Positions 10,124 to 62,900 of a DNA stretch of 64,000 bases are shown in pieces. The notes under the pieces were generated by a model. That model did not search any database, was not told the DNA's origin, and saw nothing but the letters and a program-made list of their open reading frames with translations. How positions within the stretch are numbered: position 1 is the first letter of the stretch; each line of letters begins with the position of its first letter. Origin of the DNA: Victivallaceae bacterium (lineage in GTDB: Bacteria; Verrucomicrobiota; Lentisphaeria; Victivallales; Victivallaceae); NCBI GenBank assembly GCA_021647315.1, contig JAKIUY010000006.1:1-64000 (forward strand), read 5' to 3'. Made by a program: the position numbers and the translations under genes.

Positions 10124-10205
10124 CAATTGTAAAAGTCCAACACTCAAAATCAAAAGATGCCGTTCAAAATTAAAAATCTGCCGTGGAGAGTTTTGAAATT
10201 GCCTC
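10124..10205 (-). repeat. MITE-like repeat, partial copy A
   Basis: Reading the complement, GAGGCAATTTCAAAACTCTC opens the element, followed by CACGGCAGATTTTTAATTTT and ATCTTTTGATTTTGAG, then directly the opposite end (GGACTTTTACAATTG). The middle 80 bp of the full copies (10892-11057, 62311-62475) are missing. It follows proS. Confidence 0.75.
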
Positions 10206-55526: not shown

Positions 55527-55562
55527 AAAAAAAAACGCAAAGCTCCAACGGAGCTTTGCGTT
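55527..55562 (-). terminator. Intrinsic terminator of the cold-shock gene
   Basis: AACGCAAAGCTCC (55534-55546) pairs with GGAGCTTTGCGTT (55550-55562); on the minus strand a run of T follows the stem, right after the cold-shock gene. Confidence 0.92.
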
Positions 55563-56147: not shown

Positions 56148-56165
56148 GTTTTCGTTCAGGCGCTA
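56148..56165 (-). repeat. Solo end of the clpS-leader repeat family
   Basis: On the complement TAGCGCCTGAACGAAAAC matches TAGTGCCTGAATGAAAAC at 422-439. Its first three bases are the stop codon of the racemase gene. Confidence 0.6.
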
Positions 56166-57212
56166 AATAAACACTTTCTTCACATAAGGTGAAGTCGATA
56201 ACCGGAGCAGGGCTGAATAGTTAATATCAAATTTTATTTCGCTTCCTGGTTCAAGATGGGTTTTAGAATGTAAAATTAAATGATCGCTGCTTGCTCCAAT
56301 AACTTTAGCATTTATTCTGGGCGTTATAGCTTTAGTATCAACATCTTGTTCGCCAATGCCAAGTATTACTCGATTGATATTGCCAACATCTGTAAACGCT
56401 GGGGTCTCTCCAAGTGCATTTTGACATATTTCTCCATAAGGTAGTGACGGCTTTAATTTGCTTTCTATAACCTCACATATCAAAGTAAATGCGTCAATAT
56501 ATAAATGGGGGATTTTATTTCTGCTTAGAGTTTCCCTGCCTAATAAAATAGCTTCTCCAATTCTTAAATTATTGATATTCCCAAATTTATCCTGCTGTAA
56601 AAACCATTCGTAATTTGCCGAATTTCCACCTGATACCATTTGTAGTTTTATGTCATACTTGCCCTGAATACGATCTACTGTTTGAGACAATTCTGTCATA
56701 CTTTTCTCTGATGGTCTTATACCGCCAAAGCAGGCAAAATTTACTCCAAGGCCATATAATTCAATACCTTTTAATGGAATTATTTGTTCAATAACAGCGT
56801 CCAGGTCTTCCGGTAATATACCTTCTCTTAAATCACCGAGTTCTAACATTAAAACTACTTTATGTCTTTTACCTTGTTTAACCGCATGTTCAGACAGTAA
56901 TTTAATTGTTGATATTTCCGAGTTTAAGCTTATATCGGCATACTTGACAACATCTGGAACTTCGGAGTGCGTCGGTAAGCGTGTAAGCAAAAAATTTGCT
57001 TTCACTCCAAACGCTTTCATTTTTTTAATGTTCTGAACCAGAGAAACTGCTATTGTTGTGATTCCACACTCAAGTATTGCATTCGCAATTTCAGAAGATC
57101 CTGTTACGCCCTTTATTACAGCAGTAACAGATATCCCTTTTGCAGCAAATAATTCTTTTAATATTTTAGCATTATGCTTTATTTTGTTTATATCTATTTC
57201 TAATCTTGGCAT
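56163..57212 (-). CDS. Alanine/ornithine racemase-family PLP enzyme
   Basis: Amino-acid racemase of the fold-III PLP family (349 aa), closest in pattern to ornithine racemase (Orr) of clostridia. PRLEIDINKIKHNAKIL opens the barrel, the PLP lysine is in VTAVIKGVTGSSEIA (about 34), and KYADISLNSEISTIKLLSEH, LMLELGDLREGILPEDL, VSGGNSANYEWF, LRIGEAILLGRETL and ASSDHLILHS follow in the Orr order. A D-amino acid (perhaps D-ornithine, D-alanine or a related residue) would be the product. The start abuts the end of the ATP-grasp gene, so it is the last gene of the four-gene operon. The stop codon TAG belongs to a dispersed repeat. Confidence 0.85.
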   Translation of the reverse strand: MPRLEIDINKIKHNAKILKELFAAKGISVTAVIKGVTGSSEIANAILECGITTIAVSLVQNIKKMKAFGVKANFLLTRLPTHSEVPDVVKYADISLNSEISTIKLLSEHAVKQGKRHKVVLMLELGDLREGILPEDLDAVIEQIIPLKGIELYGLGVNFACFGGIRPSEKSMTELSQTVDRIQGKYDIKLQMVSGGNSANYEWFLQQDKFGNINNLRIGEAILLGRETLSRNKIPHLYIDAFTLICEVIESKLKPSLPYGEICQNALGETPAFTDVGNINRVILGIGEQDVDTKAITPRINAKVIGASSDHLILHSKTHLEPGSEIKFDINYSALLRLSTSPYVKKVFI

Positions 57213-59285
57213 TTAAATTATCTTATATCTTTTTAACGCTGATTTTACAATTTTATCGATCAATTCCGCTGAATTCATCCCACCGGCGACAGCCATAAAT
57301 CCGATATAACTATGCGGTTTTTCTATGGGTGTACACATTAAGCCTGCAAAAGAGTTGCCTTCTAAAAGATAAGGACCTTCTTTGGTTAATATGGTATCAA
57401 TGCGGCCGTAATCTTTAAAGCCAATAGCATGGTAAGCGTTTTTAGCAAATTCTTTAACGCGGTTCATCGCTTCATCATTCAACCTGGCAGGACAGTGAAA
57501 GCTGTCATTATCCATTTCTTTTTTATCAAAAGTTAAAAAACGTGCTTCCCCGCCAAAAGAAATTTCAAGCGGTGGCAGCACCTCAGTATCATTTCCATTG
57601 CATATAATGCCCAAAGTTATTTCGGTCCCCTGTAAGAACTTTTCAATTAAAACGGGTTGTTTAATTGTCTTTAATCTTTCTTCAACACCTTTTAAAAGTT
57701 GGTCATAGTTTTCGATAATTGAGTTGTCGTCAATTCCGGCACTCCCCCTGCCGGCGACCGGTTTAATAAATAATGGATAATCAAAAGGGGGATTATTTTT
57801 AAACACGGAACAATCTTCCACAGATTTTGCCACAATAAAAGGAGAGGTTTGCAGACCTTCACTTTCCCATATTTTTTTAGCTAATGATTTATCAGTTGCA
57901 ACAGCAATTGAAGCCGAATCCGACCCAACAAAAGGAATTTCAAGCTCTTCTAATATAGCGGCTTCAGCCATGCTCGAAACATTAAATACCAAATCGACAT
58001 TGCTGTCCTGTAAATCTTTGATGAAGGATTCCCCCCAACATATAGTGCATACGTCATATCCGGCGTCAATGAGCGCCTGTTTATGATGAGCAACTTCTTT
58101 ATATGTTTCGTCTACCACATTATCCGCACCTATAAACTTTTCCTGAATTTTAAAATTTCCTCTTTTTTTGTTCAATAAACCAATTTTAATTTTTGTCATC
58201 AAGCCACCCTCTCTCGTAAATCCTGTTCTTTCTTTGGTTAATAACATGCTACTATCAATCAATATTGTTTCAGATGATTTATGTATTTCCTTTTGCGTTT
58301 TGGTGGAAATCTCATTCATTTTTTGAGTAGGTTTCATTTTATATCTCAAAATTGCACTATTAACAATCATGTTAATTAATTTATCGAATCCAATATTATT
58401 AAAATTCAGAGCTCTTCTCAAATAACTATCATCTCCAAGTCCTGGAAATAGATTAATCTCAAGTACATAAAAATTACTACCATCATATCGTATGTCCACT
58501 CTTCCCACATCTTTACCATCTACGGATTGCATAGTTTTCAAAGCAATACTTCTTAGTTTTTCTCTAATTAATGAATCATTGACTTCGGTTATCCTGTCGG
58601 TTTCCTGATTATTTTTAACTTTTTCAGTCAACAATTTTACACCATTTTTTTCAGGAATAATTATTTCTGAAAAAATTGCAACTCTGTTCCCATCATTGTT
58701 TAACACACCTACTGTATATTCTCTGCAATTTATGCCGCCAATATATTCTTCAACCATGACAGGCTGTTTGAATTCAGCAAGTAAATCTTTTGCTGTTTTC
58801 TCAAATTGGTTCTGATTATGCGCAATACTAACCCCTTCACTGCACCCACTACTTCGCGGTTTCAACACTACAGGAAATTCAAGAGAACATTTATTTATAT
58901 CTTCATGAGATGCTACCATGAAAAATGCGGGAGTTGGAATTCCATCCTTTATAAAAAATGCTTTTGCTTTTTCTTTTAGAAGTGCATTACAGACAGCGTC
59001 AGAACCTGAACCAACGAATGGAATTCCCAGTTCTTCTAATATGCTGGAAACAAATCTCTCTCTGTTGTCATCTACATATTCGGATAAAGTCAAAACTATT
59101 GATTCATCAGATTTGATTTTTATCAACTCCTGATAAAATTGCTTCAGATTATGAAACTTGATAAACGACACATTGTTTTCTGTTTTTTCGAGTGCTTTAG
59201 AAATTTCAATTTCCAGCTTTTTCGTCCGCCAAGTTTTAAATTCTTCAGGTTTAAAATCATCTCCATTAAAAATAATTATGTTCAT
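57213..59285 (-). CDS. Duplicated D-Ala-D-Ala-ligase-type ATP-grasp protein
   Basis: A 690-residue protein of two full ATP-grasp modules (about 1-320 and 363-690) joined by a 40-residue polar linker. Each has the Ddl layout: LEELGIPFVGSGSDAV and LEELEIPFVGSDSASI, the ATP-binding strands FPVVLKPRSSGCSEGVS and YPLFIKPVAGRGSAGI, and the metal loop VLEINLFPGLG and YLLEGNSFAGL. Ddl enzymes join two D-amino acids using ATP through an acyl phosphate. Here one protein could perform two ligations or keep one half for regulation. Met363 (58199) has GAGAGGGTGG upstream, so the second module might also be made separately. It overlaps the mutase gene by 20 bases and is translated with it. Confidence 0.85.
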   Translation of the reverse strand: MNIIIFNGDDFKPEEFKTWRTKKLEIEISKALEKTENNVSFIKFHNLKQFYQELIKIKSDESIVLTLSEYVDDNRERFVSSILEELGIPFVGSGSDAVCNALLKEKAKAFFIKDGIPTPAFFMVASHEDINKCSLEFPVVLKPRSSGCSEGVSIAHNQNQFEKTAKDLLAEFKQPVMVEEYIGGINCREYTVGVLNNDGNRVAIFSEIIIPEKNGVKLLTEKVKNNQETDRITEVNDSLIREKLRSIALKTMQSVDGKDVGRVDIRYDGSNFYVLEINLFPGLGDDSYLRRALNFNNIGFDKLINMIVNSAILRYKMKPTQKMNEISTKTQKEIHKSSETILIDSSMLLTKERTGFTREGGLMTKIKIGLLNKKRGNFKIQEKFIGADNVVDETYKEVAHHKQALIDAGYDVCTICWGESFIKDLQDSNVDLVFNVSSMAEAAILEELEIPFVGSDSASIAVATDKSLAKKIWESEGLQTSPFIVAKSVEDCSVFKNNPPFDYPLFIKPVAGRGSAGIDDNSIIENYDQLLKGVEERLKTIKQPVLIEKFLQGTEITLGIICNGNDTEVLPPLEISFGGEARFLTFDKKEMDNDSFHCPARLNDEAMNRVKEFAKNAYHAIGFKDYGRIDTILTKEGPYLLEGNSFAGLMCTPIEKPHSYIGFMAVAGGMNSAELIDKIVKSALKRYKII

Positions 59286-61143
59286 TTTTGTTAAGTTTCC
59301 TTAATATTAAATTCATTCTATCTTGTGCTGATATTATTTTATCATCAAGATAAATATCAACTCCACCGTTTCTTAATCTAGTCTCCCAGTTCACCGCTTG
59401 AGGAAAATCTGCTCTGCAATACATTAACTGCGGAACAGGCAAAAAACCCAGTTCAAAAATATCAAAAAAACCCTGCGGTGAATAGGTATTCTTAATTAAT
59501 GATTCAATTGCATCTATTACTATTTTAGCTTCGCTCAAGAGATGATCCATTCTATTGTTCACATCATCATTTTCATTTATATTATCTATCCAGCCTTTGT
59601 CCCGATACGCCCGATATTTATTGAGTGAGTGCAATGTTATCTTGATGCTTTCATCTATTATTGCCGGAGTCGCTAAATCATTACCTTCAGAATAACTGAC
59701 GACATGAATTATATCCGGGCTCTGACAGTTGAAAGGCTCAATGTCATCCATTAAGGCGGTAATTGATGCCAGCTGTTTTTTTGCTTTATCAATATCGTGC
59801 GATAAATAGCTCAACCCAACCCGGGTCTGTAAAAATACCTTAAAATTCGAATCTTCAAGGCTTTTTACTATATTTAATGTTGCTCTTGCCTTTGCCAGGT
59901 CATTAATTGCTGAAGTATGCTTGGGGTCATTTAACATTATTTGCAGAACAAAATGTTTTATCCCTAACTTTTTAGCAACTTTTGCTGCCAGAAAGGCTGA
60001 TGTTACATAACTCACATCATCTGCGGAGCGGAATGCAAAATGATGAGCGACATTGGCTTCATAAGGTTTACCGGTTTTGGCAATATATTTAATTGTCTCA
60101 AAATGTTCGGTTAAATTTTCAAGGAGATTTAACTCCCCGCGTCCATCTAGTTTAGAAAACCACCAAAGGGACAGGGCATGCCATGCGATATTTAATGATT
60201 TCTCATGTATTTCAGCCTGGTTGCGAATATTTTTTGTCCCGCAATACGTTCTTACCAGCATTGGTTTTGCAGCTTTATTAATAGATTCATATTCCACTGG
60301 TGAATTAATCCCTACACCACCACCATTAGGAAGATTATCCCAGTCTTCGCCAAATTTTGATTGCGTTAGTTGGGACGTTCCTATTGACAGTACATCCAAA
60401 TAGCCACTATGAGCCAATAAACGTGACCATTTGATAAATTGTTTTACCGATTCGTGTCTGTTTTCAATATAAGGGCCTGCATGAGCTCTTATTACTGGTG
60501 GTAAATTATGTTTTCTACCATCCCGGATGCGAGCAATTAAACCATCATTTGCTGTTCCGAAATTTTTATATCCACTTCTATCCACAGGCAATGTTGATAT
60601 ATAATATCTTTTATCAATGATCTCTTGACCAAAACTATCCAGGGTGTTTTTATATATGCTATCTTCTTTAAATCCTTTTGGAGCTTTTGAAGCGTCTATA
60701 CCCAACATGGTTAAAGTATCTGTAAATGATTCATCACCACAAAAAACAATTACATCTTTATATAAATATTTTATTTTATTGCAGGCTTCAGGTAATCCGG
60801 CAAACCAAATACTTTTCAGTTGCCCTCCATTTTTTACCAGAGTTTTCTTTGATTCCAATTGGTACATGAGTTTTTGGAATATCAATACTGCATCATCAAC
60901 ATTCAGACGGTAACTAAAGCCCAAAGCGTGTATATTATTCTCATGAATCCAGCTTTCGATTAATGATGAATTGTCTATATTTTGGGGATCCGTAATTGCT
61001 TTTGAAACATCATCGTCTGCAACAATAACGGTGAATCCACATTCATCAAGCAGCTCTTTAATTGCGGACACACCTAAGGTATGAGCATCAAAATATGTTT
61101 TCACCAATCCAATCGTATCACCTGATGTTATATTGCTGCACAT
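59266..61143 (-). CDS. Cobalamin-dependent mutase-like protein, single chain
   Basis: A 625-residue protein. Residues 1-150 are a B12-binding Rossmann domain: FDAHTLGVSAIKELLDECGF has the D-x-H-x-x-G motif (Asp19, His21, Gly24) whose His ligates cobalt, then HALGFSYRLNVDDAVLI. Residues about 210-520 form a TIM barrel like the glutamate-mutase (methylaspartate mutase) E subunit: PPVIRAHAGPYIENRHES, NGGGVGINSPVEYESI, MLVRTYCGTKNIRNQAEI and KPYEANVAHHFAFRSADDV. In known enzymes these two parts are separate subunits or arranged the other way round. It likely moves an amino, aminoalkyl or glycyl group by a radical route on an amino-acid substrate. It overlaps both neighbouring genes. Confidence 0.75.
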   Translation of the reverse strand: MCSNITSGDTIGLVKTYFDAHTLGVSAIKELLDECGFTVIVADDDVSKAITDPQNIDNSSLIESWIHENNIHALGFSYRLNVDDAVLIFQKLMYQLESKKTLVKNGGQLKSIWFAGLPEACNKIKYLYKDVIVFCGDESFTDTLTMLGIDASKAPKGFKEDSIYKNTLDSFGQEIIDKRYYISTLPVDRSGYKNFGTANDGLIARIRDGRKHNLPPVIRAHAGPYIENRHESVKQFIKWSRLLAHSGYLDVLSIGTSQLTQSKFGEDWDNLPNGGGVGINSPVEYESINKAAKPMLVRTYCGTKNIRNQAEIHEKSLNIAWHALSLWWFSKLDGRGELNLLENLTEHFETIKYIAKTGKPYEANVAHHFAFRSADDVSYVTSAFLAAKVAKKLGIKHFVLQIMLNDPKHTSAINDLAKARATLNIVKSLEDSNFKVFLQTRVGLSYLSHDIDKAKKQLASITALMDDIEPFNCQSPDIIHVVSYSEGNDLATPAIIDESIKITLHSLNKYRAYRDKGWIDNINENDDVNNRMDHLLSEAKIVIDAIESLIKNTYSPQGFFDIFELGFLPVPQLMYCRADFPQAVNWETRLRNGGVDIYLDDKIISAQDRMNLILRKLNKNEHNYF

Positions 61144-62291
61144 ATTCTCTTCTCTTCCCGGGATATATTTATTGATTCAACCTGCAACGTTTCTTCGCTA
61201 TTTGAAAATTTCCACAAATCCGCGACCAGATTATTGGCTGAAAGTCCAAATGCGGATAAAGTCCTACCTTCAGCACGAAAATCAATATTCAACAATTTAC
61301 TGCCTTCCTCTATAAAATAATCAATTGTCGGTGTCGGAATGCCTAAAACTTCCCCGCACAAAGCCATTGGCACTAATCCTGTGGGAATATCTTCCCAGAG
61401 ATATCGGTGATTTATTGTTGTAGGAGCCGGTATATCTTTATATGTAGGATTAGATTTTATCATTTCATAAATCGAAGTTTTAGGCAATCCATATCTTGAA
61501 TTTAACCAATCAACAACAGAAAATGAATTTAAGCCAATTGCTGATGCAATTGAATTAAATTCTAAATCCACTTTTTCAATATATTGAGCAACTTCTTGGG
61601 TAACACCATCCGTGTAAAAATTAAATATTTTTTTATTTAAAATATTTTCTTTATTTAAAAGAAAAATTACCGGATGAAATATGGCTCCAATATTACTGAA
61701 ACTGGTTTCTATAACCGTATCCGCTTTGATTATATTAGGGAATACATCTGAAAGAACATCTATCACATAATCAGTATCTCGGGAATATAATGCTGATATT
61801 GGTACTTTTTTCTTAATTCCTTTGATTTCAATCAAGGCAGGACTCTTTAGCCTTGCGGCAAAAAACAAAGTACTTGTTTCGGCAACAATAACATTTGCTT
61901 TGCACCCTGCTTTGTACAATGCTTGGCTAAATAATAAAGCCCCCAATGTTCTGCCGGGTGCAAGTAAAATTATTTGCCCATCTTCTAGATAAGGAGCAAT
62001 TTTTTCAGCAATATCACCATGGCCGTTTGCGGTTATTACAACAATTATTACAGCACTATGACGTATCGCCTCTGAAAGATTATCACCTATATAATTCAAC
62101 CTGATTTTATGCGATTTATCGCCGAACTTTATTTTATAATCATGGTCTTTAACATATTTAATGCGCTCCATGGTTCTATTGTATAAAGAAACCTCGTATT
62201 CTTTTAGAAAAATAAACCCTGCAGTACCCAATCCACCACTTCCGGCTCCAATTACAGTATATTTCTTTTTGCTCATTTTATATCCATTCAT
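61128..62291 (-). CDS. Opine/octopine-dehydrogenase-family enzyme
   Basis: NAD(P)-dependent enzyme of 387 residues. The N-terminal Rossmann fold shows KYTVIGAGSGGLGTAGFI and VIIVVITANGHGDIAEKI; the middle has QIILLAPGRTLGALLF and VIVAETSTLFFAARLKSP. The C-terminal NAD/NADP octopine-nopaline dehydrogenase domain has INHRYLWEDIPTGLVPMALC and GIPTPTIDYFIEEGSKLL, ending in GRTLSAFGL. Family members reductively join an alpha-keto acid and the amino group of an amino acid, or run in reverse. AAGGAA lies before the ATG at 62291. It is the first gene of the four-gene unit and overlaps the mutase gene by 16 bases. Confidence 0.82.
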   Translation of the reverse strand: MNGYKMSKKKYTVIGAGSGGLGTAGFIFLKEYEVSLYNRTMERIKYVKDHDYKIKFGDKSHKIRLNYIGDNLSEAIRHSAVIIVVITANGHGDIAEKIAPYLEDGQIILLAPGRTLGALLFSQALYKAGCKANVIVAETSTLFFAARLKSPALIEIKGIKKKVPISALYSRDTDYVIDVLSDVFPNIIKADTVIETSFSNIGAIFHPVIFLLNKENILNKKIFNFYTDGVTQEVAQYIEKVDLEFNSIASAIGLNSFSVVDWLNSRYGLPKTSIYEMIKSNPTYKDIPAPTTINHRYLWEDIPTGLVPMALCGEVLGIPTPTIDYFIEEGSKLLNIDFRAEGRTLSAFGLSANNLVADLWKFSNSEETLQVESINISREEKRICAAI

Positions 62292-62310: not shown

Positions 62311-62475
62311 GAGGCAATTTCAAAACTCTCCACGGCAGATTTTTGATTTTGGACGGTATCTTTTGATTTTGAGCTCATTCACATACCCACGGGTATGATT
62401 AATCGCTAAAAAATCAAAATCTACTCGCCAAAAACAGTAAAAATCATGCTCGCGCTGGACTTTTGAAATCACCTC
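62311..62475 (+). repeat. MITE-like repeat, full copy D
   Basis: A 165-bp element with the same ends (GAGGCAATTTCAAAACTCTC and, in complement, GAGGTGATTTCAAAAGTCCA) and internal blocks as 10892-11057. It lies just upstream of the first gene of the racemase/mutase operon, 20 bp from its start codon, so it may carry or displace the promoter. Confidence 0.85.
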
Positions 62476-62823: not shown

Positions 62824-62900
62824 TGGTGGATCCTGTAGGACTTGAACCTACGACCAGACGATTATGAGTCGTCTGCTCTAACCAACTGAGCTAAGGATCC
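62824..62900 (-). tRNA. tRNA with CAU anticodon (Ile2 or elongator Met)
   Basis: The complement folds into a full cloverleaf: acceptor GGATCCT/AGGATCC, D-arm TTAGCTCAGTTGGTTAGAGC, anticodon stem GACGA/TCGTC with loop CTCATAA (anticodon CAU), T-arm GTAGGTTCAAGTCCTAC, discriminator A and an encoded CCA. The D-arm, the ACTCATAATCG region and the T-arm resemble E. coli tRNA-Ile2, whose C34 is modified to lysidine; the acceptor stem (T4-A69) does not match that type fully. Elongator tRNA-Met is the alternative. Confidence 0.93.

Follow-up and report, generated by a model that had tools for sequence, protein, structure and literature searches.

An opine dehydrogenase and a cobalamin mutase-like protein form a conserved pair in an operon predicted to make an amino-acid-derived metabolite

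The window, by which we mean the whole 64,000-nucleotide stretch of Victivallaceae contig DNA that was analyzed, contains an operon of four open frames on the minus strand. The preliminary description had read these genes as one translated unit, and the overlaps of 16 bp and 20 bp and the one direct abutment were confirmed. The features of the operon and its flanks are the following:

62824–62900, minus strand: tRNA-Met (CAT), just upstream of the low-G+C operon
61128–62291, minus strand: ODH, an opine-type dehydrogenase resembling CENDH (N-(1-D-carboxyethyl)-L-norvaline dehydrogenase); matches to PF02317 and 1bg6, with His211, Arg301 and Asp306 present
59266–61143, minus strand: MUT, a cobalamin mutase-like protein of an unnamed family; N-terminal B12-binding Rossmann domain (about residues 1–135) and (β/α)8 barrel (about residues 200–500)
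57213–59285, minus strand: fused double Ddl-type ATP-grasp protein, with an N module (about residues 1–345) peculiar to the window
57213–58199, minus strand: C-terminal ATP-grasp module, the version kept by relatives, with its own ATG and a Shine-Dalgarno-like AGGGTGG inside the fused frame
56163–57212, minus strand: PLP amino-acid racemase, closest to ornithine racemase (Orr) but under the cut-off of the Orr model
55534–55562, minus strand: strong intrinsic-terminator-like hairpin with a 13-bp stem and a T-run, about 600 bp past the last operon gene

The G+C content was 35% for the operon versus 41% for the window. The tRNA-Met gene is a possible insertion landmark; no att-type repeat of it was found in the window. 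A cobalamin riboswitch was looked for at the operon, and none was found. The second Met of ODH (MSKKK) may be an alternative start. Upstream of the operon, at 62313–62325, lies the 13-base string GGCAATTTCAAAA, which has one inverted repeat at 10191–10203, possibly by chance.

The gene families were as first assigned. ODH matched Octopine_DH (PF02317) of Pfam at 5e-41, the ligase contained two Dala_Dala_lig_C modules, and the racemase matched Ala_racemase_N and was nearest to Orr. The best PDB match of ODH was CENDH of Arthrobacter (1bg6; 9e-66 across 346 residues), an end-to-end homology; the genetic contexts of the two enzymes differ. His211, Arg301 and Asp306 of ODH align with CENDH residues that we take to be catalytic, and they were invariant in 69/69 sequences. 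Because this predicted catalytic set is invariant, ODH is probably an active enzyme.

No family in Pfam or NCBIfam was reached by MUT, the sole match being to B12-binding and under its cut-off, and single-sequence and profile searches against PDB sequences gave nothing relevant. An AlphaFold model made with only 4 MUT sequences had a pLDDT of 64; the model was rebuilt with 74 sequences, reached 91.8, and showed a Rossmann domain followed by an eight-stranded barrel. The top Foldseek match was the glutamate mutase subunit GlmE (1cb7_B, E 6e-11), followed by lysine 5,6- and ornithine 4,5-aminomutase. The MUT barrel is homologous to those of GlmE, KamD and OraE (Foldseek E 6e-11 to 1e-8, probability 1.00), with moderate TM-scores of 0.50 and 0.63 across the two domains. 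Because hhalign of MUT against the GlmE/MutE profile was marginal (E 0.016, probability 2.9%; 0.07 for the barrel only), its kinship with the glutamate-mutase family rests on the fold. Met_asp_mut_E (PF06368) was matched by 0/74 MUT members and by nothing in the window's own genome.

The cobalamin motif DxHxxG was kept, with Asp19 in 71/74 members and both His21 and Gly24 in 74/74. The rest of the motif was similarly conserved: Ser77 and Arg79 in 74/74, Gly107 in 73/74 and Gly106 in 66/74. Its SxL element is a SYRL variant with Arg as the third residue, and the Pfam B12-binding model at E 0.01 matched 21/74 members. The fold and this motif bear out the earlier description of MUT as a B12-mutase-like protein. 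We predict an AdoCbl-dependent mutase, and the window's own genome encodes a BtuR-type adenosyltransferase, with which the host can probably make AdoCbl from cobalamin.

In both aminomutases, a PLP-binding Lys lies 11 residues past the cobalt-ligating His (His133/Lys144 and His618/Lys629; PMC3958899). At this position all 74 MUT members lacked Lys and had Leu, Val or Ile instead. An aminomutase identity for MUT was rejected on this ground; because the Lys is missing in 74/74, a PLP-free mutase is likelier and an ornithine-aminomutase-like function unlikely. The proposed resemblance to the pathway of D-ornithine 4,5-aminomutase was therefore not upheld, glutamate mutase being also the best structural match. 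MUT shares with D-ornithine 4,5- and lysine 5,6-aminomutase the fold family and a DAHTLG-type motif, and the window operon has an Orr-type racemase; it differs from them in its N-terminal Rossmann domain and in the lack of OraS and Ord. Glutamate mutase (GlmS plus GlmE) likewise combines a barrel and a B12-binding Rossmann domain with DxHxxG and lacks the PLP Lys. Unlike that enzyme, MUT is a single chain with the Rossmann domain first and no PF06368 match, and its neighbors are an opine dehydrogenase and ligases rather than MutL and methylaspartase. MUT appears to represent a new branch within the glutamate-mutase fold; neither Pfam nor NCBIfam names the family, and its pathway has no description in the papers searched.

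The predicted active site bears on the substrate. GlmE has an arginine claw of three Arg residues, and the free amino group of its substrate is held by Glu171, Tyr177 and Tyr181. In MUT, invariant residues lie at the ends of barrel strands 1 (Arg219), 3 (Arg298) and 8 (Glu486); judged by strand topology alone, these would occupy the places of GlmE Arg66, Arg149 and Glu330. Glu330 helps Co–C bond breakage in GlmE (PMC4413051). By the same topology-only alignment, two of the three claw Arg residues appear to be kept, the place of the strand-2 Arg appears to be taken by Gln258/Gln261, and the strand-4 Glu/Tyr places by His322/Trp327/Trp328. Three additional Arg residues (Arg335, Arg372 and Arg441) are invariant. 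The altered strand-2 and strand-4 positions and the added Arg residues suggest a substrate other, and more acidic, than free glutamate; the additional Arg residues would suit one with more carboxylates, such as an N-carboxyalkyl amino acid. If instead MUT acted first, it would convert free L-glutamate to 3-methylaspartate as glutamate mutase does, and ODH would then condense this amine with a keto acid. Glutamate mutase as top fold match and the Arg residues of strands 1 and 3 and Glu of strand 8, kept by topology, agree with that order, but the apparent replacement of the amino-group holders and the strand-2 Arg and the gain of Arg, as far as topology-only equivalences can tell, make it quite unlikely. 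We consider an opine the more likely substrate of MUT.

MUT relatives were found at 201 or more loci in GTDB genomes, a lower bound because the scan was pattern-based, and the best 80 of the 201 were analyzed. They span Bacteroidota, Bacillota, Spirochaetota, Verrucomicrobiota, Planctomycetota and Armatimonadota, among others, and occur also in Thermodesulfobacteriota, Latescibacterota and one archaeon; carriers include Bacteroides pyogenes, Prevotella and Acidaminobacter hydrogenoformans. Within its own phylum MUT is patchy (4/241 genomes, the window's own one counted), and none was found in the plasmids searched. An opine dehydrogenase adjoined MUT in 74/84 loci, on the same strand in 73 and usually with a gap of less than 200 bp; in four of the 10 loci without one (L016, L066, L075 and L084), MUT lay at or near a contig end. 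The distance matrices of ODH and MUT for 69 loci gave a Mantel r of 0.80, against a maximum of 0.08 in 1000 permutations, which reflects co-evolution and in part shared species history. This adjacency and correlation identify the ODH–MUT pair as the conserved core. The Aenigmatarchaeota MUT (L022:9974–11866) was split in two frames, with no opine dehydrogenase within 10 kb.

Co-conservation of all four genes across genomes, which the preliminary description had put forward as a check, held in part. The ODH–MUT–Ddl-like–Orr-like set was present in eight other loci (L009, L010, L011, L012, L013, L015, L016 and L018), with MUT identities of 59–84% and with ODH cut or missing in two of the eight contigs, there only at the contig end; the ligase and racemase, however, vary by lineage, and only ODH and MUT belong to the core. 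Because the set recurs in eight contigs and the pair in 74/84 loci, the arrangement is not due to chance. The double ATP-grasp ligase also stood only for the window: its two modules, 30% identical to each other, both have by eye the catalytic Arg/Asp/Glu/Asn motifs (GRVD...EIN and GRID...EGN), but the ligase of every relative with the set is a single ATP-grasp module of about 330 aa. The extra N-terminal module is fused ahead in the window genome. Because the C module retains its ATG at 58199, preceded by AGGGTGG, it might also be translated separately. The racemase fell short of the Orr model, its best in NCBIfam, with 389 bits against a cut-off of 480. In L009 (13907–15298) and L010 (6020–6877), a B12-binding radical SAM-like gene, recognized by eye, lies about 13 bp past the racemase; the window has no such gene.

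In the MUT tree, the window copy belonged to a clade of 10 rows that mixes eight named phyla, where it grouped with copies from Bacteroidales and Spirochaetales; the two relatives from its own phylum (G098 and G110) lay elsewhere, in a PVC-rich clade. This placement, the low G+C content of the operon and the upstream tRNA-Met gene point to horizontal acquisition. The four-gene set has apparently spread by horizontal transfer, and some single cases may be metagenome binning errors. In one contig from Planctomycetota (L056:11964–13283), the gene about 20 bp past MUT resembles alanine racemases by eye; racemase recruitment may have happened on two occasions.

An amide-forming ligase lay within 6 kb of MUT in 46/82 loci, of LAL-type ATP-grasp (19), Ddl (19) or asparagine-synthase type (9), one locus being counted under two types. 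Sugar clusters surrounded MUT within the same distance in 12/82 loci, and genes for MscS-like proteins, MscS or Na+/H+ exchangers lay within it in 13/82 (PVC, Spirochaetes, delta and WOR-3); the two contexts overlapped at no locus, and context type tracked the clades of the MUT tree. In many Clostridia and other Bacillota the pair stood alone, with no conserved partner. Clostridial glutamate mutase feeds amino-acid fermentation, and a catabolic use would have ODH oxidize opines and MUT pass the amino acid into such a pathway. The 20 Bacillota copies, several from amino-acid fermenters and mostly of the pair alone, are in keeping with this; yet ATP-consuming ligases adjoin the pair in most other clades and neither degradative genes nor transporters are conserved next to it, so that we regard catabolism as very improbable.

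For a biosynthetic operon, whose radical mutase and ODH together yield an unusual carboxylic amino acid for capping by the ligase, we judge the chances to be about even. The substrates, the order of steps and the final product are those that we infer. ODH would couple an amino acid and a keto acid by reductive amination; MUT would act as an AdoCbl-dependent, PLP-independent radical mutase of the glutamate-mutase type in a single chain; and their joint product would be a carboxylate-rich, opine-like amino acid with a rearranged skeleton. In the window operon a D-amino acid would come from the Orr-like racemase and be coupled to this product by the Ddl-like ATP-grasp ligase. The operon product is probably a small amino-acid-derived molecule, as was proposed earlier. 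Elsewhere, different ligases would cap the same core product, which would go into a surface polysaccharide or probably serve as a compatible solute. Because many Clostridia carry the pair without a nearby ligase, ligation of the end product is not a general feature.

Two purposes would fit this core. In the first, a compatible solute, the product would be an anionic osmolyte, or a neutral or zwitterionic one after amidation or coupling to a D-amino acid. In PVC, Spirochaetes and deltaproteobacteria the pair occurs with an asparagine-synthase-like enzyme and/or MscS-like proteins, and the 13 loci with MscS-type or exchanger genes often have that enzyme too. Two known solutes are N-acetylglutaminylglutamine amide, which is amidated, and N-acetyl-beta-lysine, which is derived by a mutase (PMC1224877); a ligase or amidotransferase yields the former and a radical mutase plus a capping enzyme the latter, although both pathways use other enzymes and have no opine step. 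Against this use, no MscS- or exchanger-type genes surround the window operon, the Bacteroidota copies sit in sugar clusters, and the role of the small MscS-like membrane protein is putative; we hold it to be possible, at somewhat less than an even chance.

In the second, decoration of a surface glycan, a capsule or O-antigen would bear an opine-like acid joined through an amide bond to one of its amino sugars. We know of no B12 mutase in opine-decorated O-antigen systems. The loci of Bacteroidota and Alkaliphilus place the pair within sugar-polymer gene clusters, with a sugar transferase, a DegT aminotransferase, an ATP-grasp enzyme, glycosyltransferases and a flippase. Known O-antigens carry alanopine on 4-amino-4,6-dideoxyglucose or N-(1-carboxyethyl)-lysine (PMC10609480); in those of Providencia alcalifaciens O35 and P. 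rustigianii O14 a carboxyethyl amino acid is amide-linked to a sugar, a structure of the kind that would be expected from the Bacteroidota loci. Because these compounds and the solutes above are known, both uses have precedent. The window operon, however, has no adjoining sugar-polymer genes, its clade having a Ddl-like ligase and a racemase instead, and decoration seems doubtful.

The broadest reading is tentative and on the unlikely side: a widespread radical pathway would use a fused B12 mutase to rearrange the carbon skeleton of an opine into one building block, which different phyla would cap with different ligases and employ as an osmolyte, as a substituent of capsules or in conjugates with D-amino acids. 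To our knowledge, the AdoCbl mutases of the carbon-skeleton and amino types fall into few described families, and MUT would add another, tied to an opine dehydrogenase. If the reading is true, anaerobes and gut bacteria would use B12 for osmoprotection or for their surface glycans, and the pathway would predict a new metabolite, directly searchable in cultured strains. In the papers searched, a partial and mostly non-subscription collection, we found neither a link between a B12 mutase and an opine dehydrogenase nor a description matching the gene set, in agreement with the preliminary description.

Two further observations concern EIIA domains. Directly downstream of MUT in L007 (3651–5357) is the gene for a Na+/H+ exchanger whose C-terminal part is an EIIA domain. 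In L025 (8304–9974), ODH carries an N-terminal PTS EIIA-2 domain (Pfam), and by eye L024 and L043 are alike, a fusion hinting at nitrogen-PTS control.
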